43,616 bases of DNA. It comes from Clostridium sp. (GTDB taxonomy: Bacteria > Bacillota > Clostridia > Lachnospirales > Lachnospiraceae). Positions 161 through 38,892 of the stretch are shown piece after piece (position 1 is the stretch's first letter; the number at the start of each line of letters is the position of its first letter). Below the pieces are notes generated by a model that worked only from the letters and a program-made list of their open reading frames with translations, ran no database searches and was not told the DNA's origin. The stretch covers positions 1-43,616 of the forward strand of contig JAMPEW010000025.1 in NCBI GenBank assembly GCA_023664775.1, read 5' to 3'. The position numbers and the translations under genes are program-made.

Positions 161-295
161 CTACGCTGACAATCTTTTTCTTCCCTTTGCTCTCCTTGCG
201 GCCAAAACCTTTCTTCCATTCGCTGTGCTCATTCTCTTTCTAAAACCATGAACCTTTGATCTCTGTCTCTTTTTTGGCTGAAATGTCATTTTCAT
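161..295 (-). CDS. rpmH: Large ribosomal subunit protein bL34
   Basis: This 44-residue, Arg/Lys-rich ORF begins [18 protein letters not shown] and ends GRKRLSA, which is diagnostic of bL34 of the large ribosomal subunit. It is too short for many ORF callers. An AGGAG site precedes the ATG. A promoter lies at 354-382, and rnpA follows in the same direction. The neighbouring spacer toward dnaA is where oriC normally sits. Confidence 0.97.
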
Positions 296-353: not shown

Positions 354-382
354 ATTATATTGAAAAAGCATTATTCCGTCAA
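354..382 (-). promoter_or_regulatory. rpmH-rnpA promoter
   Basis: On the minus strand, TTGACG (382-377) and TATAAT (359-354) are separated by exactly 17 nt, a near-consensus sigma-A promoter. It starts transcription about 50 nt before rpmH. It lies just outside the left inverted-repeat arm. Confidence 0.8.
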
Positions 383-410: not shown

Positions 411-669
411 TAAGAATAATTAGCCTATTAACTTATTTCAGTTATCGTTAAATGTAGAACATCGTTACTTCCATATAAAATATAATTTATGTTAAGTAAA
501 TATTATTTAAGGCAGACTTATTAACAAATTGAAAATGACGTATTTATTAATCATTGTGAATAAATAAACATAAAATCGACTAGTTATCCACAGATTAACA
601 ACATTTTGTGGATAAAATTATGTAAAGTAGTTATGTATTAGATATAAACGCACAGCAAATTGTGGATAA
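411..669. repeat. Left arm of a 260-bp inverted repeat carrying DnaA boxes (oriC-like)
   Basis: Reading 411 to 669 rightward gives the same sequence as reading 4590 to 4324 on the minus strand. Six substitutions and one 8-nt indel separate the two, so they are about 98% identical. The arm holds four 9-mer DnaA boxes: TTATCCACA at 584-592 (+) and, as the reverse complement, at 607-615 and 661-669, plus TTATTCACA on the minus strand at 555-563. The rest is very AT-rich. The rpmH-dnaA spacer is the usual oriC site in Firmicutes, so this arm is half of a duplicated origin block. Confidence 0.95.
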
Positions 670-736
670 TTTAATGGGAAGAAACGAAAAAACTATTAAT
701 ATAAGTCTGAACATATGTCTTTTATTTTTCTTCAAC

Positions 737-801
737 TAGTACAAATAGCATAGTACTGGTACAATGAGCTTATTTACATGTATTGTTAAATATATTATAT
801 T
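737..801 (+). promoter_or_regulatory. Promoter with upstream TRGTAC repeats for the secreted-protein gene
   Basis: TTTACA (773-778) and TATATT (796-801) are 17 nt apart and lie 40 nt before the ATG at 841. Just upstream are three hexamers: TAGTAC at 737-742 and 751-756, and TGGTAC at 757-762. Each contains the GTAC palindrome, which would suit an activator or repressor site. The regulator is not identified. Confidence 0.45.
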
Positions 802-840
802 TAATAAGTAACATAAAACATTAAATAGGAGGTAACGATT

Positions 841-1263
841 ATGAAGAAAAAATTAGTAAGCGAAATAGCAATATTATTAATGATGGTATTGATGTACTCA
901 AATTATACTATGGCATCATCTGGTTCAGGTTCGGTTACAGTAGACATTGGATGTACATTTAGAACAGGTGTTTCTGGAGTTTCCAGAACAACCAGCTATA
1001 GTTATGTTCAAGTAAAAGCCAACAGTGTATATCCGACAGGTACTTATAAAGAAGATAATTTTACAAAATGTAAAACTGCATTATACAAGAATGATAGCAC
1101 AAGTACAAGGATATCTAGTATATATACTTTAACAGAAGGCAGCGGTTATACTAATGTAAGAATTAATGAAGGGTATCTTTCCTTAACTAAAGTAAATATT
1201 TGTTTTGCTGGAAATGATCCTTCATATAGCGCCGTAATTGATTTTTCTTATAATGGTAAATAA
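841..1263 (+). CDS. Secreted protein of unknown family, first gene of the oriC cassette
   Basis: This is a 140-residue protein with a clear signal peptide: a KKK n-region, a hydrophobic stretch at about residues 8-22, and an Ala-Ser-Ser cleavage region near 25-27. The mature part is rich in Ser, Thr, Tyr and Gly, looks beta-strand-like, and has three cysteines (near 38, 77 and 121). A strong AGGAGG site lies at 827-832. I do not recognise the family. It is separated by a hairpin from an ABC exporter operon on the same strand, so a secreted effector, bacteriocin-like or signalling role is possible but unproven. Confidence 0.75.
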   Translation: MKKKLVSEIAILLMMVLMYSNYTMASSGSGSVTVDIGCTFRTGVSGVSRTTSYSYVQVKANSVYPTGTYKEDNFTKCKTALYKNDSTSTRISSIYTLTEGSGYTNVRINEGYLSLTKVNICFAGNDPSYSAVIDFSYNGK

Positions 1264-1297
1264 TAAATACCCTTATAAATTACATAATCATGATTAA

Positions 1298-1332
1298 AAC
1301 CTTAGGGCTATTATTTTAATAGACCTAAGGTT
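1298..1332 (+). terminator. Hairpin between the secreted-protein gene and the ABC operon
   Basis: AACCTTAGG (1298-1306) pairs with CCTAAGGTT (1324-1332), and an inner CTATT/AATAG stem extends it. The U-tract is weak (TTAATATTTA). It may act as a leaky terminator or RNA-stabilising element, making the first gene's transcript more abundant than the exporter genes. Confidence 0.6.
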
Positions 1333-1378
1333 AATATTTATACACAATAGTTAAAATACTTATATAAGGAGAAATAAG

Positions 1379-2194
1379 ATGATAAAAAATGTAACAATTA
1401 ATATAAAATACATTTTGAACAGCAGACCTGCAATTATCATATGGTACGTGAATCTTATTTTTTCATTAGGAAATTTTATTAATAATGTAAGGATAAATTA
1501 TAATAGGATTTATATTACGGAAATGTACGAAATCCCTAAACTGCTTTTGTTATCCGATTGGAGTGCATTTGGTTTCTTTTATATGATTGTTTTTCCTATC
1601 ATTGTTGTTTTTCCAACGCATGCCCTCTTTATTAAGGATAAAAAAAGTGGTATGGGTTCTTATATAAAAACCAGAACAGGTCATACAAGCTATTGTATAT
1701 CCAAAATTATCTCCGTATTTATCAGTACATTTATATTATTTGTGTTCCCTTTGGTTATTGAATTGATTTTATCACTTATTTGTCTGGAAGCTAGGGCAAA
1801 TGGCGACCCTTCCAATATTCAATATTATGTAACAGCAAAAGAAGCTTCAACCTATCCTCTGCACGCCCTTTATTTTGAAAATAAATTTTTATATGCATTT
1901 GTCTGGATAATTTTATTTGGCTGTATATGTGGAGCCTTTGCCATAATCAATTTGGCAATCGCAACTGCTTTGAAGCTGAAATACAGCATATTTGCAATGT
2001 TACCGCTTTACGTTATCCTTACTTTTACGAATAGATTAGATACATTTCTAAAAAGCAATTATACATATAATTACAATTATTTATTAAAAATGTTCAGCTT
2101 TGGACAAAAAAATTATTTAGGCTTTTCATTGATTGTAATTGTATCATTAATAATCAGTATCGGATTACTTTTATGGGGTGGTAGAAAACAATGA
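1379..2194 (+). CDS. ABC-2-type membrane permease subunit (first)
   Basis: This 271-residue protein has about six hydrophobic segments, including those near residues 20-35, 60-85, 105-130, 170-195, 200-215 and 245-265. It lacks ATPase motifs. AAGGAG lies 8 nt before the ATG. Its stop overlaps the next start (ATGA at 2191-2194), so it is translationally coupled to a second membrane protein and then to an ABC ATPase. The layout matches two-permease ABC-2 exporters of peptides or self-immunity. The substrate cannot be read from sequence. Confidence 0.7.
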   Translation: MIKNVTINIKYILNSRPAIIIWYVNLIFSLGNFINNVRINYNRIYITEMYEIPKLLLLSDWSAFGFFYMIVFPIIVVFPTHALFIKDKKSGMGSYIKTRTGHTSYCISKIISVFISTFILFVFPLVIELILSLICLEARANGDPSNIQYYVTAKEASTYPLHALYFENKFLYAFVWIILFGCICGAFAIINLAIATALKLKYSIFAMLPLYVILTFTNRLDTFLKSNYTYNYNYLLKMFSFGQKNYLGFSLIVIVSLIISIGLLLWGGRKQ

Positions 2195-2991
2195 ATAGAA
2201 AAAATATAATCATACCTGCTTCCTACAGTGTAATTTTTTTTATGGTTTGCATATTCGTGCATAAAAAAATAAGCATCAGTGAGTTAATATTAGTATTATC
2301 CTTTGGAATTTTTAATAATTATAAGGCTTCTGTCGGAGATGCTTTTTTTCAATATTTACTTATTGTTTTTGCACATGTAGTATTTGGTACCCGATTATAT
2401 AAAAACTTTTGTAATGCCACCGCTTACTTTTATGTCCGAACTGTCAATTTAAAACGGTGGTTTCTTGATGAAGCCGTTAAATTATTTGCAGACATTATTC
2501 AATTTTACTTCATTCATTTATCTGTGCTAATTGGTTTATGCTTTGTTTCAGGCAAATTAACTAAAATAGAGCTTTGTGATATTTTTTTCATACTGTATTT
2601 TATTGCTTTATATTCCATGTTTACATTTATCACGTCTATTCTATTAAATATCATTGCAATATATACAGATAGTGGTATTGCTTTTATGGCAGTGGAGGGC
2701 ATTAATGCTGTTTTCATGGGCTTATATTTAATGACAGGAGAAATTTTTACGCCTGAATATTTGGCGAATCATTCTTACATATTTAAGTTAAATCCAATTT
2801 GTCATTTGATAATACATATTCACAAAAGCAACATAACGATTATGAATGAACATCTGACAAATCCATTAATCCAAACAAGCTTATCTGCATCTTTTGTATT
2901 TTTACTTTTATGTACTATATTTGTAGTAGTTGCAGGCTGTTTTATGATAAATAAAATGGATTTAATTGGAGAGAAGATGGAGGGGGAATAG
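2191..2991 (+). CDS. ABC-2-type membrane permease subunit (second)
   Basis: This 266-residue polytopic protein has about six predicted membrane segments. It starts inside the stop of the preceding permease, and its own stop ends 1 nt before the ATPase start. It shows no nucleotide-binding motifs. By context it is the second half of a heterodimeric exporter membrane domain. The codon usage is strongly AT-biased, like the rest of the cassette. The family assignment rests on topology and operon context rather than a recognised motif. Confidence 0.68.
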   Translation: MNRKNIIIPASYSVIFFMVCIFVHKKISISELILVLSFGIFNNYKASVGDAFFQYLLIVFAHVVFGTRLYKNFCNATAYFYVRTVNLKRWFLDEAVKLFADIIQFYFIHLSVLIGLCFVSGKLTKIELCDIFFILYFIALYSMFTFITSILLNIIAIYTDSGIAFMAVEGINAVFMGLYLMTGEIFTPEYLANHSYIFKLNPICHLIIHIHKSNITIMNEHLTNPLIQTSLSASFVFLLLCTIFVVVAGCFMINKMDLIGEKMEGE

Positions 2992-2992
2992 T

Positions 2993-3622
2993 ATGGTAAT
3001 ATCATTAGAAAACTTATCAAAGGAAATAAAAGGCAAAAAAGTATTAGATAATATTTCAGCAGAGTTTGAAAGTGGTTTTATTTATGGACTGGTTGGAAGA
3101 AATGGCTCTGGAAAAACAATGCTTCTTCGGGCAATATCAGGTCTTATAAAAATTGATGACGGTAACATATTATTTGACGGTGAAACTATCACCAACCGAA
3201 AGAATAAAATAATGGATTTGGGAATTATGATTGAAAATATGGGTCTTTATCCTGAATTAAATGCATATGAGAATTTGAATTACCTGACAGGGCTAAATAA
3301 AAAGGTGTCAAAGGAAACAATCAACAAATACATTGATATGGTTGGTTTGGACAGCAAGGATAAAAGACCGTTCCATAAATATTCATTGGGTATGAAGCAA
3401 CGTCTGGTTTTTGCTCAGGCTATATATGAAAATCCGTCTATACTATTACTGGACGAGCCGACAAATTCACTGGACGAAAATGGGGTTGAAACAATACGAA
3501 ATATCATTAAGGACTTAAAATCAAAAGATAGAATTATTATCATCACAAGTCATATTAAAGAAGATATTGATATTTTAACGGATAAAATATATACCATTTC
3601 AGATGGAAGATTGGAGAAGTGA
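2993..3622 (+). CDS. ABC transporter ATP-binding subunit
   Basis: This 209-residue ATPase shows Walker A GRNGSGKT (about residue 35), a Q-loop region followed by GLYPELNAYENL, the signature YSLGMKQRL (about 130), Walker B ILLLDEPT (about 150) and the H-loop ITSH. The YSLGMKQ form of the signature is typical of ABC-2 exporters in the bacitracin or lantibiotic-immunity group. I chose the ATG at 2993 because GGAGGGGGA precedes it; an in-frame upstream start at 2966 lies inside the previous gene. It would power the two permeases encoded just upstream. Confidence 0.93.
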   Translation: MVISLENLSKEIKGKKVLDNISAEFESGFIYGLVGRNGSGKTMLLRAISGLIKIDDGNILFDGETITNRKNKIMDLGIMIENMGLYPELNAYENLNYLTGLNKKVSKETINKYIDMVGLDSKDKRPFHKYSLGMKQRLVFAQAIYENPSILLLDEPTNSLDENGVETIRNIIKDLKSKDRIIIITSHIKEDIDILTDKIYTISDGRLEK

Positions 3623-3627
3623 TTTAT

Positions 3628-4296
3628 ATGTTTAAAAAGGTTAATTGCTATATTTTTTTAGTATTAATGGTTGTTTGCTTCAGCATTGGTTTGATAACCA
3701 AGCACTCTCATAAAAATATAAAAGATGATATGGATGATTTTTATATTGGACTGATAGATGAAACCCTAGTTGAAAATCAAATAAATTTTATGAAAAATTC
3801 AGAATATTCATTAGATAAAAGTAAATATATTTTACTTGTTACGTGCCAAAGTGAAATTGAATTTGATTTTTCATGTGGAAGCCAAAAGGTTTCTGTAGAA
3901 TCAGTTATAAAGGGGGACACCTCCTTATCCAAAGGTGACGTCATTGATATTCTTACATTAAATGCTACTTTCATTCCTGATTATGTCCAGTTTGGTTCCT
4001 TAAATTTTGGATTTTTGAACCAATTAAAGCCAAATAATCAATATATTATTTTTTTGGATGAATGTGTATCATTAGATAATAAAGATACTATTTTTCTATA
4101 TAATATAGACTATTTAATGAAACCCTACTTTTCTGTCGATGAAATCAATGCTTCTCCGATTGAAAGTGAATTATCGGACGGATATTTTGCTAAATACAGT
4201 AATATTAATAATAATGATGTTTTTATGATGTCCTCTGACTCCATTAATAAGTGGAACGAATTTCGCAAGGAGGTCATAGATACTTATATTCAATAA
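3628..4296 (+). CDS. Membrane-anchored protein of unknown function, last gene of the oriC cassette
   Basis: This protein of about 222 residues has one N-terminal hydrophobic segment (about residues 7-23) followed by a soluble region, probably outside the cell. GGAG at 3613-3616 favours the ATG at 3628; an in-frame GTG at 3619 overlaps the ATPase stop but sits too close to that site. It ends 27 nt before the right inverted-repeat arm. The family is not recognised. Given its position it may be an accessory or immunity component of the ABC exporter. Confidence 0.65.
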   Translation: MFKKVNCYIFLVLMVVCFSIGLITKHSHKNIKDDMDDFYIGLIDETLVENQINFMKNSEYSLDKSKYILLVTCQSEIEFDFSCGSQKVSVESVIKGDTSLSKGDVIDILTLNATFIPDYVQFGSLNFGFLNQLKPNNQYIIFLDECVSLDNKDTIFLYNIDYLMKPYFSVDEINASPIESELSDGYFAKYSNINNNDVFMMSSDSINKWNEFRKEVIDTYIQ

Positions 4297-4323
4297 ATAT
4301 CAATATATAAAATGAAGTATATT

Positions 4324-4590
4324 TTATCCACAATTTGCTGTGCGTTTACATCTAATACATAACTACTTTACATAATTTTATCCACAAAATGTTGTTAATC
4401 TGTGGATAACTAGTCGATTTTATGTTTATTTATTCACAATGATTAATAAATACGTCATTTTTAATTTGTTAATAAGTCTGCCGTAAATAATATTTACTTA
4501 ACATAAATTATATTCTATATTATTATATGGAAGTAACAATGTTCTACATTTAACGATAACTGAAATAAGTTAATAGGTTAATTATTCTTA
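4324..4590. repeat. Right arm of the oriC inverted repeat
   Basis: This is the reverse-complement copy of 411-669, 8 nt longer because of one insertion at about 4516-4523. It carries the same four DnaA boxes in mirror order: TTATCCACA at 4324-4332 and 4378-4386, its reverse complement at 4401-4409, and TTATTCACA at 4430-4438. It directly precedes the dnaA promoter, so this is probably the arm in the ancestral position. Whether one or both arms fire as origin is unknown. Confidence 0.95.
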
Positions 4591-4596
4591 AAATTC

Positions 4597-4625
4597 TTGT
4601 AAAAATCCAAATTTTATAGTATATT
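4597..4625 (+). promoter_or_regulatory. dnaA promoter
   Basis: TTGTAA (4597-4602) and TATATT (4620-4625) are 17 nt apart, starting transcription about 50 nt before dnaA. The promoter abuts the DnaA-box-rich arm. This fits the well-known autorepression of dnaA by DnaA. Confidence 0.7.
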
Positions 4626-4639
4626 ATAGATAGTTATGC

Positions 4640-4662
4640 GCTCATTTTAAAATGAGCTTTTT
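4640..4662 (+). terminator. Attenuator-like palindrome in the dnaA leader
   Basis: GCTCATTTTAAAATGAGC (4640-4657) is a perfect 18-nt palindrome followed by five T residues. It lies between the dnaA promoter and the ribosome-binding site GGAGG (4672-4676). It has the form of an intrinsic terminator inside the 5' leader, or of a residual terminator. The stem is short and AT-rich, so it is probably weak. Confidence 0.45.
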
Positions 4663-6060: not shown

Positions 6061-6336
6061 TACATATCAACCTATTGTTAATTACTGTATCAACTCATAT
6101 GTTAATTTGTTGATAAAATATTTTAATTTTAAACCTTTAAATTTGATGCTTTAAATGGATCCATAGTTAATTAACATATATTATTTCAGTTAGGCACATT
6201 ATTTTTATATTGAAAAATCCTTTAACTTTAAGTAATTTAAGGCTTTTCAACATATCAACACCTATTAATAATACTAATATTAATTTATTAAATATATATA
6301 TATTGCATTTATGCAATCGAAAGGAGTTACATAAGA
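6061..6336. other. AT-rich dnaA-dnaN spacer with TATCAAC repeats
   Basis: There is no ORF here. The heptamer TATCAAC occurs at 6065-6071, 6088-6094 and 6253-6259, and inverted at 6109-6115. The first and last are embedded in a longer near-repeat, ACATATCAAC(A)CCTATT. I see no perfect DnaA box. The 3' part is almost pure A/T, and AAAGGAG precedes dnaN. In some Firmicutes the dnaA-dnaN gap forms part of a bipartite origin, so it could hold the unwinding element. Confidence 0.5.
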
Positions 6337-15266: not shown

Positions 15267-16334
15267 ATGAGCAAGATATGTTGCGGAGTTACTTATTCAG
15301 ATGAAGACAAGGTATGCCGCGTTTGTGGAAAAAACCTTGTGGATGATGAAGAAAAAACAGTATTGATTAATACAACGCCTGATAATGGGAAGGCAGAGGA
15401 AGAAGAACCTTCTGATTCTACGGAGGAGTTAAAAGGAACAGCAGAGCCTGTAAACCCACAGGAGCCTGAAGCGGCAGAAGAAAAACAAGAGGATAAATCA
15501 ACCTCCGAGGATGAACCAAAGCAGGAAGAAGCTGTAAATACAGAGGAGCCTGCAAAAGCAGAGGAAGGCGAAAAGCAGGAAGCTGAGGAAGATGATGAGC
15601 CAAGTACATCAATACTCACAGCAGATATGATGGGACCTATTAAGCATCCTGAAAATGAAGGAAACGGGCAAAATCCAAATATGGCTAAGCCAATGGGACA
15701 GCCGCCAATACCTCCGATGGGACAGCCGATGGGACCGCAAGGTCAACCGATGATGGGACAGCCGAACCGACCGATGGGACCGCAGGGGCAGCCGATGGGA
15801 CCGCAGGGGCAGCCGATGGGACCACAAGGTCAGCCAATGATGGGACAGCCGAACCGACCGATGGGACCACAGGGACAGCCGATGGGACCGCAAGGTCAGC
15901 CAATGATGGGACAGCCGATGGGACCACAAGGTCAACCGATGATGGGACAGCCGAATCGACCAATGGGACCACAGGGACAGCCGATGGGACCACAAGGTCA
16001 ACCGATGATGGGACAGCCAAACCGACCAATGGGACCACAGGGACAACCGATGGGACCACAAGGTCAGCCAATGATGGGTCAGCAGCCTCCAAAGCCAGCG
16101 AAGCCGCCAAAACCACCAAAGTCACCTGAGGCAAAGGAAAAGACTGCAAAGATTTGTGGTATTACGACTCTTTCTGTTTCAATTGCAGGACTTATAGCAG
16201 TGCTTGTAATGATGTTTATGTTTGTCATAAGCCCAAATTACAAAAAGTTTAAGGGCGAAGCAGGTAAGGGCTTTCATGACCCAAGTACAAATGTATCTAC
16301 AGTGAGCGATGCAGCAGAAGGAGAGGAGGAATAG
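15267..16334 (+). CDS. Zinc-ribbon, Gly-Pro-Gln-repeat membrane protein
   Basis: The protein has 355 residues. The N-terminus carries a short Cys pair motif (ICCG, then CRVCG), likely a zinc ribbon. A Glu/Pro/Ala-rich acidic stretch follows (about 30-120), then tandem repeats of MGQP and MGPQGQP units (about 145-275), a basic PPKPPKSP segment, and one transmembrane helix (about 298-320) close to the C-terminus. GGAGG precedes the ATG. The layout suggests an inside-facing disordered tail with a short outside part. No known family is assigned. The next gene begins 2 nt later. Confidence 0.75.
   Translation: MSKICCGVTYSDEDKVCRVCGKNLVDDEEKTVLINTTPDNGKAEEEEPSDSTEELKGTAEPVNPQEPEAAEEKQEDKSTSEDEPKQEEAVNTEEPAKAEEGEKQEAEEDDEPSTSILTADMMGPIKHPENEGNGQNPNMAKPMGQPPIPPMGQPMGPQGQPMMGQPNRPMGPQGQPMGPQGQPMGPQGQPMMGQPNRPMGPQGQPMGPQGQPMMGQPMGPQGQPMMGQPNRPMGPQGQPMGPQGQPMMGQPNRPMGPQGQPMGPQGQPMMGQQPPKPAKPPKPPKSPEAKEKTAKICGITTLSVSIAGLIAVLVMMFMFVISPNYKKFKGEAGKGFHDPSTNVSTVSDAAEGEEE
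15715..16080 (+). repeat. In-frame tandem repeat encoding MGPQGQP units
   Basis: A stretch of about 365 bp is built of imperfect units reading MGPQGQP and MGQPNRP, sometimes MMGQP, in changing order. Unit lengths are multiples of 3, so gain or loss keeps the frame. Third-position differences between units show the copies are not freshly expanded. The repeat lies wholly within the coding sequence. Confidence 0.9.
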
Positions 16335-36276: not shown

Positions 36277-38892
36277 ATGGATAATAATTTTAATAATGGT
36301 ATGCCGGAACAGATAACTCCAAATCCCACAATGCCGCAGGCTGATACAGTGCAGCCACAGCCATATGGGATGCCACAGCCTGAAATGAACCAGCAGATGC
36401 AGGCTGATACAGTGCAGCCACAGCCGTATGGGATGCCACAGCCTGATATGAATCAGCAGATGCAGGCTGACACAGTGCAGTCGCAGCCATACGGGGTGCC
36501 GCAGCCTGAAATGAACCAGCAGATGCAGGCTGACACAGTGCAGTCGCAGCCGTATGGGATGCCGCAGCCTGAAATGAACCAACAAATGTATGGACAGCAG
36601 GCACAGCCGAATACAAACCAGCAGATGTATGGGCAGCAGGCACAGCCAAATACAAATCAGCAGATGTATGGACAGCAGGCACAGCCGAATATGAATCAGC
36701 CTCAGGCACAGCCTGTAAATGCAGGTGGAGGAAATGGAAGCAAAAAGCCGCCGAAACCTCCAAAGGTTAAAAAGCCGATGACAGGCGGGAAGCTTGCAGG
36801 AATTATATGTGGTGGAATTGCTGCTGTTGTCGCAATTGTATGTGGCGTTATATTTATACCGAAGCTTTTTAGAACGGATAAAGAGGTCGTGATAGACGCC
36901 TTTGAAGCCACATTAGTTACTGATACTGAAAATGTTTATATGGAAGATACGTTAGGACTCTCGGAAATTCAAAGTAAGCTTCAGGAGAGCGGCGGAACGA
37001 TTCGTATGAATTTCGGCATTGACGATGTAGAGGATGTGAATATCGACTTGGGCTTTGCAATTGAGGAGGTTTATAACCCTGTCGATAAGCTGATTGAATA
37101 TTCCATAGAGGCGCTTGGCGATGGTGATAGCCTCATTAAGCTCAACTGCTTTGGTGATGAAACAAATACCTATGTTGAGTTTGAGAATATCATTGACGGC
37201 TATTTTATGATTCCGAATGACGATCCAATAGGCGCGCTTGCCAGCTCGTGCTTTGGCGACGAGATGGATGCTGCGGAGTTAGCGGAACTAAGCAGTGTAT
37301 TTCAGCTTGATTATTTTGGCACTGATTCCTCCGATGGAACTACGGTGGATATTAATTCAGGATATGTCAGTGCCGTTGAGGAGCTTTGGGATAAGGCAGA
37401 GTTTGAAAAACAGGGAAACGCCAAGATTGATGTAAATGGAAAAACAGTTACTGCAAAGGAATATACGGTTACCTTAAGGGAAGAAAACATTGAAAATGCC
37501 TTTGTTTCTATTTTTGACGGTGTAAAGGAGACATACGAAAATGATCCTGACCTTCTTGATAGTACAGGAATGGATTATGCAACCTTTGAAGCTACGATAG
37601 CACAGGCACAGCAAATGATACCTTCCCTTATAAGCGGAGATTTCGTTGTAAAGGTGTATATAAAGGATAAAGAGGTAGTTAAGATTACCTCAGCAGACGA
37701 CATTTCACTTTACGGAGTGAGTATGTCATATGACTTTTTCCTTGATATAGATGACAACGATATTCAGGGCGCAATGACCTTTGATATTATGGGCGAGGCA
37801 ATGAATATTTCTTTTGAAGCCCATGATTTACAGGGAAATGCAAATGGAAGGGCTGTAATGTCCATAGATGGAGATTCGGTAGAGCTTGTATACAACTCAA
37901 CGGTCGATGATACGGATGCTGCCTCAAATGTTAAGTATAATTGTGATGTCCTTGAGAATGGGGATGTTATATTTTCAATTGATGGCGAAAAAAGCTTTAA
38001 TAAAGTGGATAATTCATTTCATGCAAGCATGACAATGGGCGATGAATTCGATGAGGTTGCAATTAACATTTCAGGAAAGCTTACGGATATTAATAAGGGA
38101 GTATCCTTTAGGCTTGTTATTGATGAACTCACGCTTGACTTTGATGAAGACATTGTCGTAAAAATGAATATGGAATATGCAGTTGATACATCTGCAAATA
38201 CGGCAAGAAAATATGACAGCAGCAAGAAGGTGTATGAGCTTGCAACACTTACGGAAACAGAATATGAGAATATGCTAGATGAAAATACCGACCTCATTAT
38301 GAATTGGCTGGAGAAGCTGATGGATAATGCATTTATAAATACATTAGTTGATGCAGCGTTTGATGCATATACGGTATATCCTGACCAAGATTTTGATAAT
38401 CCGGACCCTAACGAGTCTGTAGTGACAAATACTGTGGATGACATGATAATAGAGGATGGCGGTATTAGAATTCGTGTTCTTGAAAGCCTGCCGGGGCTTA
38501 CATGTACGTACGATGGAATTACTTATATAATCTTTAATGATGATAATTATAACTATAACGTAAATAATTATGACTATGACGTAACTTACATGATATTTGC
38601 GGATATGGAGCCAAGAGAGCTTGTAGATTTGTATTTTGAAGAGATAGATGATGCAGAAGATGCTGTGGTTGAGCTTGATTCTGAGCTTACGCTATCAGAT
38701 GGCTCTACAGTTTACTATTCATTTCAAAAAATGGGAACAAATGAGTTCGATTATGGCAGTCAGGGTGTGTATGCCAAGGATTTAGGCAATGGTGCATGTG
38801 TCGTGGCCGCAATATTTGTAATTGGACGTGATACAACCTCCGCAGAGCTTGGAGAGGCACTGTTAGACAAGAATTTTGAGCTGCTTCAGTAA
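36277..38892 (+). CDS. Gln/Pro-repeat membrane protein with large extracellular region
   Basis: The protein has 871 residues. An N-terminal low-complexity tail is made of QPYGMPQPEMNQQM-type units and YGQQAQPN units (about 20-145). It is followed by KKPPKPPKVKKP, a transmembrane helix (about 172-195) and a long acidic, beta-rich outer domain. The C-terminal region (about 730-871) has many Tyr/Asn/Asp. It resembles the 15267/16337 pair in plan, with tail, PPKPPK, one membrane helix and an outer part, here fused into one chain. AGAAGGAGAG precedes the ATG, 14 nt after buk. The function is unknown. Confidence 0.72.
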   Translation: MDNNFNNGMPEQITPNPTMPQADTVQPQPYGMPQPEMNQQMQADTVQPQPYGMPQPDMNQQMQADTVQSQPYGVPQPEMNQQMQADTVQSQPYGMPQPEMNQQMYGQQAQPNTNQQMYGQQAQPNTNQQMYGQQAQPNMNQPQAQPVNAGGGNGSKKPPKPPKVKKPMTGGKLAGIICGGIAAVVAIVCGVIFIPKLFRTDKEVVIDAFEATLVTDTENVYMEDTLGLSEIQSKLQESGGTIRMNFGIDDVEDVNIDLGFAIEEVYNPVDKLIEYSIEALGDGDSLIKLNCFGDETNTYVEFENIIDGYFMIPNDDPIGALASSCFGDEMDAAELAELSSVFQLDYFGTDSSDGTTVDINSGYVSAVEELWDKAEFEKQGNAKIDVNGKTVTAKEYTVTLREENIENAFVSIFDGVKETYENDPDLLDSTGMDYATFEATIAQAQQMIPSLISGDFVVKVYIKDKEVVKITSADDISLYGVSMSYDFFLDIDDNDIQGAMTFDIMGEAMNISFEAHDLQGNANGRAVMSIDGDSVELVYNSTVDDTDAASNVKYNCDVLENGDVIFSIDGEKSFNKVDNSFHASMTMGDEFDEVAINISGKLTDINKGVSFRLVIDELTLDFDEDIVVKMNMEYAVDTSANTARKYDSSKKVYELATLTETEYENMLDENTDLIMNWLEKLMDNAFINTLVDAAFDAYTVYPDQDFDNPDPNESVVTNTVDDMIIEDGGIRIRVLESLPGLTCTYDGITYIIFNDDNYNYNVNNYDYDVTYMIFADMEPRELVDLYFEEIDDAEDAVVELDSELTLSDGSTVYYSFQKMGTNEFDYGSQGVYAKDLGNGACVVAAIFVIGRDTTSAELGEALLDKNFELLQ
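36331..36700 (+). repeat. In-frame repeat encoding QPYGMPQPEMNQQM units
   Basis: There are four imperfect copies of a roughly 69-nt unit (ADTVQPQPYGMPQPEMNQQMQ), then three copies of a 39-nt unit (MYGQQAQPNTNQQ). All copies keep the frame. Variation between copies is mostly at synonymous or conservative positions (P/S, E/D, M/V). Confidence 0.88.

Follow-up and report, generated by a model that had tools for sequence, protein, structure and literature searches.

A second, inverted copy of the probable oriC1 region beyond an exporter operon in a Clostridium sp. of the Lachnospiraceae

The replication origin locus of Clostridium sp. GCA_023664775.1, a gut bacterium of the family Lachnospiraceae, was analysed in a stretch of 43,616 nt (the window), which is contig C17 of the 60-contig assembly. 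Genomes are labelled with G (G000 being the window genome and the other G numbers its relatives), loci with L and contigs with C. The contig starts 160 nt past the 3′ end of rpmH. It carries, in order, rpmH, a 259 nt block (armL), five open reading frames (ORFs), a 267 nt inverted copy of the block (armR), dnaA, dnaN, recF, gyrB and gyrA. The identities of dnaN, recF, gyrB, gyrA and rpmH are presumed from sequence and gene order. On balance we favour the explanation that this is a bipartite origin of the clostridial type, in which the upstream half, oriC1, was duplicated in inverted orientation beyond a cargo operon in the ancestor of a small clade, with the copies kept alike by recombination and oriC1 acting as an enhancer that tolerates either orientation.

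Two oriC1-like arms and one candidate melting site

A repeat search paired positions 473-669 with 4324-4520 (197 nt, 98%) and 411-478 with 4523-4590 (68 nt, 97%). Direct alignment of 411-669 with the reverse complement of 4324-4590 recovered 254 identical positions out of 259, with five substitutions and one 8 nt indel (259 vs 267 nt), and the longest exact stretch common to both arms was 112 nt (window 532-643). The analysis confirmed the inverted duplication with four DnaA boxes per arm that had been proposed in a preliminary description of this DNA, as well as the five-gene cassette between the arms (ORFs at 841-4296), but corrected its count of six substitutions. Both arms consisted of AT-rich DNA with a dense DnaA-box cluster, in which TTATCCACA occurred three times exactly and TTATTCACA, with a single mismatch, once. 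Six of the eight exact copies of TTATCCACA in the whole window were inside the arms, while 100 shuffles of the window gave a mean of 0.66 copies and a maximum of 3. None of the five substitutions between the arms fell in a DnaA box, an outcome often expected by chance given that the boxes take up 36 of the 259 positions. A third arm copy was not detected at E 0.001 across the 60 contigs of the assembly, and dnaA was present as one full-length copy, the other DnaA match being partial (29%).

The spacer between dnaA and dnaN contained a DnaA-trio-like motif at 6244-6282, consisting of seven NTA triplets (6262-6282) after ATATCAACA, with CAACACC ahead of the triplets. This was the only run of seven NTA triplets in the window. 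Two runs of five were found elsewhere, at 2284 and 4199, and the arms held runs of 2-3 triplets at most. A similar motif, with uninterrupted runs of 3 to 7, was recognised by eye in 21 out of 21 dnaA-dnaN spacers (G000 and 20 relatives, a set without G008, G011, G013, G018, G025 and G031) and also in the origin loci of G007, G023 and G024, from which dnaA is gone. Since the single trio-like motif lies between dnaA and dnaN, the arms are most likely equivalent to oriC1, which in bipartite origins of clostridia is the half with DnaA boxes upstream, and are probably not two whole origins as had been supposed. The probable melting site is then a single one, in the dnaA-dnaN spacer and outside the 411-4590 interval.

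In Clostridioides difficile the origin is bipartite, with oriC1 between rpmH and dnaA and oriC2 between dnaA and dnaN, and melting takes place at oriC2 beside the DnaA-trio (PMC7561715). The window is similar in its rpmH-[oriC1]-dnaA-[oriC2]-dnaN order (here with cargo between rpmH and dnaA), in its upstream cluster of DnaA boxes and in its trio-like motif beside a box. Unlike C. difficile, which has a single oriC1, it has two, inverted with respect to each other and with an exporter operon between them. A duplication of a whole origin, of the type reported from Mycobacterium bovis BCG, was rejected, as neither dnaA nor the unwinding region was duplicated (one full-length dnaA and one run of seven triplets).

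oriC1 and its cargo in related genomes

A dnaA orthologue was found in 30 of the 36 genomes of the same genus. In G029 the contig begins at dnaA and could not be read, which left 29 readable relatives. One normally oriented oriC1 was seen in 27 of these, so the comparison of rpmH-dnaA spacers bore out the expectation that relatives are normally single-copy; "one copy" here refers to at most 20 scored candidates per genome and the stretches fetched. Eighteen relatives lacked cargo and had a single, normally oriented oriC1 together with rpmH and dnaA. In G018 and G025 the contig ended between a normal oriC1 and rpmH, in G007, G023 and G024 rpmH, oriC1 and dnaN lay together with dnaA on another contig, and in G036, G010, G028 and G021 a single normal oriC1 had cargo on its rpmH side. 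The remaining two relatives differed. G034, the second closest relative, possessed a single, inverted oriC1 without cargo, on one continuous contig with rpmH, dnaA and dnaN. In G014, the closest relative, contigs ended inside two arms, one adjoining rpmH and the other adjoining dnaA. An inverted block on the rpmH side was thus confined to three species of one clade (G000, G014 and G034) and was seen in none of the 27 other readable relatives.

The cargo of G036 consisted of the same five genes as in the window (60-87% amino acid identity), on one contig from rpmH to dnaA and with no left arm. That of G010 was the same operon from g5 to most of g2, where the contig ended, again beside a normal oriC1. 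G028 and G021 carried other cargo, namely small secreted-type proteins (judged by eye), 432-433 aa proteins, an ABC ATPase and a 723-724 aa membrane protein, among ORFs that were on the + strand or exceeded 120 aa; the locus comparison displayed ABC matches from 90 bits upwards. The rpmH side of oriC1 therefore holds different exporter operons in this clade. As four relatives with a single oriC1 carry cargo, the insertion of cargo is an event distinct from the duplication of oriC1, and the cassette does not depend on the latter as first thought. In other genera of the family, 23 of 30 genomes yielded DnaA, and in 22 of these 23 loci rpmH lay no more than 1.5 kb from dnaA, so that cargo of this kind would not fit beside oriC1; the remaining locus was cut by a contig end.

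Some further features of these loci were recorded. A second arm-like match in G023 (L090; 36 nt, E 0.006) was taken as chance. A 46 nt match in G024 lay beside a second, 42% identical DnaA and was not counted; this DnaA, on C125 (L093), has its own rpmH and DnaA-box stretch and is possibly on a contaminating contig. In G007, G023 and G024 (origin loci L091, L090 and L092), dnaA is gone from the origin and rpmH, oriC1, oriC2 and dnaN are contiguous, so that a bipartite origin has naturally become a continuous one. The relocated dnaA (L074 in G007, L073 in G023 and L076 in G024) follows a presumed amylase-like gene and precedes a presumed uvrB-like one, as seen from listed ORFs in G024 and from the flanks in G007 and G023. 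Between g5 and oriC1 of G010 (L067, approximately 3168-3337) there is an insert resembling a hairpin, bounded by inverted repeats ATTATCACACCAAGAGTATTTATAC, which by eye looks like a small non-autonomous element.

History of the arms and competing explanations

The tree reconstructed from five genes, in which gyrA of G009 was partial, recovered ((G000,G014)100,G034)100. Support for the larger clade by gene was 100 with recF, gyrB and gyrA, 94 with dnaA and 50 with dnaN. The four arms of G000 and G014 were compared over 101 ungapped columns, gapped columns being skipped. Of these, 83 were invariant, three were alike within G000 and within G014 but differed between the two species, and none had the opposite pattern; the other 15 had changes in one arm or were mixed. 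The arms of G014 were also identical over the 55 nt leading up to both contig ends. The three concerted columns against no independent ones, together with this identity, indicate, from few sites, that recombination between the arms keeps the copies alike. Nucleotide identity of the cassette between G000 and G036 or G010 was 0.70-0.86 by gene, mostly slightly under that of the core genes (0.84-0.87), which fits, without proving, an insert that predates the split. With the same operon beside a normal oriC1 in G036 and G010, the cargo is perhaps older than the duplication.

We suggest that the ancestor of G000, G014 and G034 already had the exporter operon between rpmH and oriC1, and that oriC1 was then copied, in inverted orientation, across the cargo to the rpmH side. 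Recombination between the two copies would have kept them alike since then. G034 would later have lost the cargo and the dnaA-side copy, leaving the inverted oriC1 in use. DnaA would bind both arms, and DnaA on either arm could loop to oriC2, where the strands would open. A study of Bacillus subtilis describes such contacts by looping between DnaA on the upstream region and oriC2, with oriC1 as a possible enhancer (PMC13220808). According to another, a distal box inside the downstream part (incC) works at several distances and both origin halves are essential in vivo (PMC6669920). Those box shifts were engineered within incC and reached up to 462 bp, whereas the window has a natural second oriC1, 3.65 kb from the first and in the opposite orientation. 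As an orientation-tolerant enhancer, the duplicated oriC1 would offer redundancy and extra local binding of DnaA and would not make two firing sites; any gain from the second copy may lie in either of these effects, or there may be none. The inverted copy appears to be sufficient in G034, and if that species lives on an inverted oriC1, orientation would not be critical. A function for the second arm of the window is what we infer from these comparisons.

Several observations weigh against this explanation. The DnaA boxes of oriC2 were weak, the best having 1 mismatch and the other three 2 each, and the NTA run at 6262 was equally long on the opposite strand. The middle of the G014 locus was absent from the assembly, so that its twin arms are deduced from two contig ends; a search for an inner arm gave nothing below E 0.3, g3 and g5 had no match in that genome, g1 matched as a 31-residue fragment only, and the permease of the other cargo type matched just two 25% paralogues. 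Support for the three-species clade was 70 with dnaA and dnaN, where more taxa were included, and 50 with dnaN alone. The dnaA region of G036 looks partly exchanged, and exchange could mimic descent. Nine columns were changed in the rpmH-side arm of G014 alone, and the concerted sites numbered just 3 of 101. An inversion in place in G034 would give an identical structure. Finally, firing of armL should have shifted the cassette towards a leading-strand composition relative to G036 and G010. The skew at fourfold sites, calculated without codons containing N (there were 23 N in the cassette genes of G036) and without g1 and the start of g2 in G010, gave no significant sign of a fork from armL crossing the cassette. 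The G/C skew was -0.12 in G000, -0.23 in G036 and -0.30 in G010, which is the expected direction (Fisher p 0.53 and 0.26), and the T/A skew gave p 0.14 and 0.19 against the same two genomes.

The second arm could instead be a neutral relic, left behind by an accident of repair or template switching and kept like the other arm by recombination through mere proximity, with the dnaA-side arm alone being of importance. Twin arms are found in G000 and probably G014 only, G034 being inverted. The two arms of G014 have drifted apart at their outer ends, with 95 of 109 positions identical in the ungapped part, and the lack of a skew signal in the cassette is also compatible with a relic. However, the sole oriC1 found in G034 is the inverted one, so an inverted block can probably serve, and the DnaA boxes of the two arms are free of substitutions, with the caveat on chance given above. 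We regard a neutral relic as unlikely, though not easily dismissed.

A different history of the same parts and mechanism is that a single oriC1 was flipped first, as in G034, after which recombination brought cargo and a normal oriC1 back in from a relative, and gene conversion made the arms alike. The dnaA-dnaN region of G036 looks exchanged between lineages and the type of cargo at the site varies among species, both of which agree with such an acquisition. Yet the arms are 98% alike, compared with 82% between armL and the oriC1 of G036 over just 74 nt, and near-full conversion would be needed. This order of events seems rather improbable; it overlaps the explanation we favour in mechanism, and the probabilities of the two are not exclusive.

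Two complete origins, firing independently 3.65 kb apart, would account for the dense DnaA-box cluster and AT-rich DNA in each arm. The single trio-like motif in the dnaA-dnaN spacer (shared by the 21 spacers) and the short NTA runs of the arms speak against them, and in C. difficile unwinding was seen with neither half on its own (PMC7561715). We consider independent firing quite unlikely. Still less likely is an assembly artefact or a mixture of strains. The six closest relatives (G014, G034, G036, G010, G028 and G021) are metagenome assemblies, and in G014 the contigs break off within the arms. Against this, five substitutions and an indel separate the arms, with an exact repeat of 112 nt at most. 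The earlier judgement that an artefact is unlikely was upheld because three separate assemblies (G000, G014 and G034) each place the inverted block next to rpmH, in G034 on a continuous contig. A mobile element, such as a composite transposon, whose inverted ends would be the two arms, can practically be dismissed: inverted ends do flank cargo that varies by species at the site, but the five cassette proteins showed no recombinase or transposase family above cut-off in Pfam and NCBIfam, no third arm reached E 0.001 in the genome, the arms match the relatives' own oriC1, and G036 holds the same cargo without armL.

More speculatively, and with little expectation that it is correct, oriC1 might be a module with no fixed orientation or copy number, which some lineages flip, double or furnish with cargo while others remove dnaA. 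DnaA bridging the two arms could then loop out the exporter operon at the spot replicated first, tying its expression to initiation.

The exporter cassette and comparison with known origins

The best NCBIfam model of the ATPase g4 was TIGR03740, at 177.6 bits and thus below the cut-off of 309.75. The cassette resembles lantibiotic protection ABC exporters of that family in having two membrane proteins and one ATPase, but g4 falls short of the curated cut-off and g1, g2, g3 and g5 had no Pfam or NCBIfam family above cut-off, so membership was rejected. A known exporter family was likewise not recognised by sequence searches of Pfam, NCBIfam and PDB, which returned a generic ABC ATPase for g4 and nothing convincing for the others. 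Relatives of g3 and g5, grouped with a g1 fragment, were found away from the origin on C54 of G000 (L125, L134 and L192) and on C29 of G028 (L119, L131 and L191), and a g1 relative (48%) on C32 of G000 (L133). As cassette-type genes also lie away from the origin, this type of operon is not origin-specific.

An element upstream of the cassette, AGTACTRGKACAATGNNCTTATTTACATG, is common to the other type of cargo in G028 and G021. The pattern was built from these same sites, which therefore match by construction. Scanning seven genomes with up to 3 mismatches located a single occurrence in G000 and three each in G028 (with 0, 1 and 3 mismatches) and G021 (with 0, 3 and 3). There was none in G014, G034, G036 and G010, and a reversed control gave no match. 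The two 3-mismatch sites of this 29 nt element in G021 are on C4, and L065 and L066 are the cargo loci that hold the element.

Table 1. Features of the origin locus, in window coordinates
Feature	Position	Strand	Evidence or remarks
rpmH (ribosomal protein L34)	161..295	-	ORF; homologue near oriC1 in relatives
Possible rpmH promoter, TTGACG-17-TATAAT	354..382	-	Consensus scan, 11/12
armL, probable inverted second oriC1 copy, adjoins rpmH	411..669	+	Orientation opposite to most relatives' oriC1
Four DnaA boxes of armL	555..669		555-563 -, 584-592 +, 607-615 -, 661-669 -
Upstream element AGTACTGGTACAATGAGCTTATTTACATG	752..780	+	Common to the different cargo of G028 and G021
g1, 140 aa protein, probably secreted, no known family	841..1263	+	Signal sequence by eye; hydropathy scan below threshold
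g2, membrane protein, probable ABC permease	1379..2194	+	4 hydrophobic segments; no family match; role inferred from place
g3, membrane protein, probable ABC permease	2191..2991	+	6 hydrophobic segments; no family match; role inferred from place
g4, ABC transporter ATPase	2993..3622	+	PF00005, E 3.5e-30
g5, one N-terminal hydrophobic segment, no family assigned	3628..4296	+	Pfam, NCBIfam, hydropathy
armR, probable oriC1 at usual place and orientation, adjoins dnaA	4324..4590	-	Repeat search, alignment, relatives
Four DnaA boxes of armR	4324..4438		4324-4332 +, 4378-4386 +, 4401-4409 -, 4430-4438 +
Possible dnaA promoter, TTGTAA-17-TATATT	4597..4625	+	Consensus scan, 9/12; stretch kept in close relatives
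dnaA	4684..6060	+	PF00308 and PF08299
Probable oriC2, dnaA-dnaN spacer	6061..6336	+	Weak DnaA boxes (6244, 6252) followed by the DnaA-trio-like run 6262-6282

The consensus scan behind the two possible promoters (Table 1) returned 28 sites in all against 36.1 in shuffles, which is no excess. Between the possible dnaA promoter and dnaA, at 4640-4657, there is a terminator-like hairpin with a T run. As a structured element of the dnaA leader it was rejected, folding being no better than that of shuffles in three out of three sequences. Elsewhere in the window, tandem repeats with raised G+C were noted at 15719-16073 and 36336-36691, the former inside a proline/glutamine/methionine-rich ORF (15267-16334).

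Natural extra origin sequence at dnaA is also on record for M. bovis BCG Pasteur DU1 (PMC2448323) and, by prediction, for Acidaminococcus fermentans (PMC4403523). The copies in both include dnaA, as a tandem duplication in BCG, unlike the window, where oriC1 alone is present twice, inverted and without dnaA or oriC2. An inverted oriC1 copy around cargo was not met in the titles and abstract openings of the open-licence PMC papers that literature searches listed.

The genus offers a natural series, from 27 relatives with a single normal oriC1 (four with cargo and three with dnaA gone) through one with a single inverted copy (G034) to two genomes with opposed copies (G000 and probably G014), so that the enhancer model of oriC1 can be tested directly. 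The site beside oriC1 accepts different operons within one clade, and the series bears on whether oriC1 needs a fixed orientation and number in a bipartite origin.

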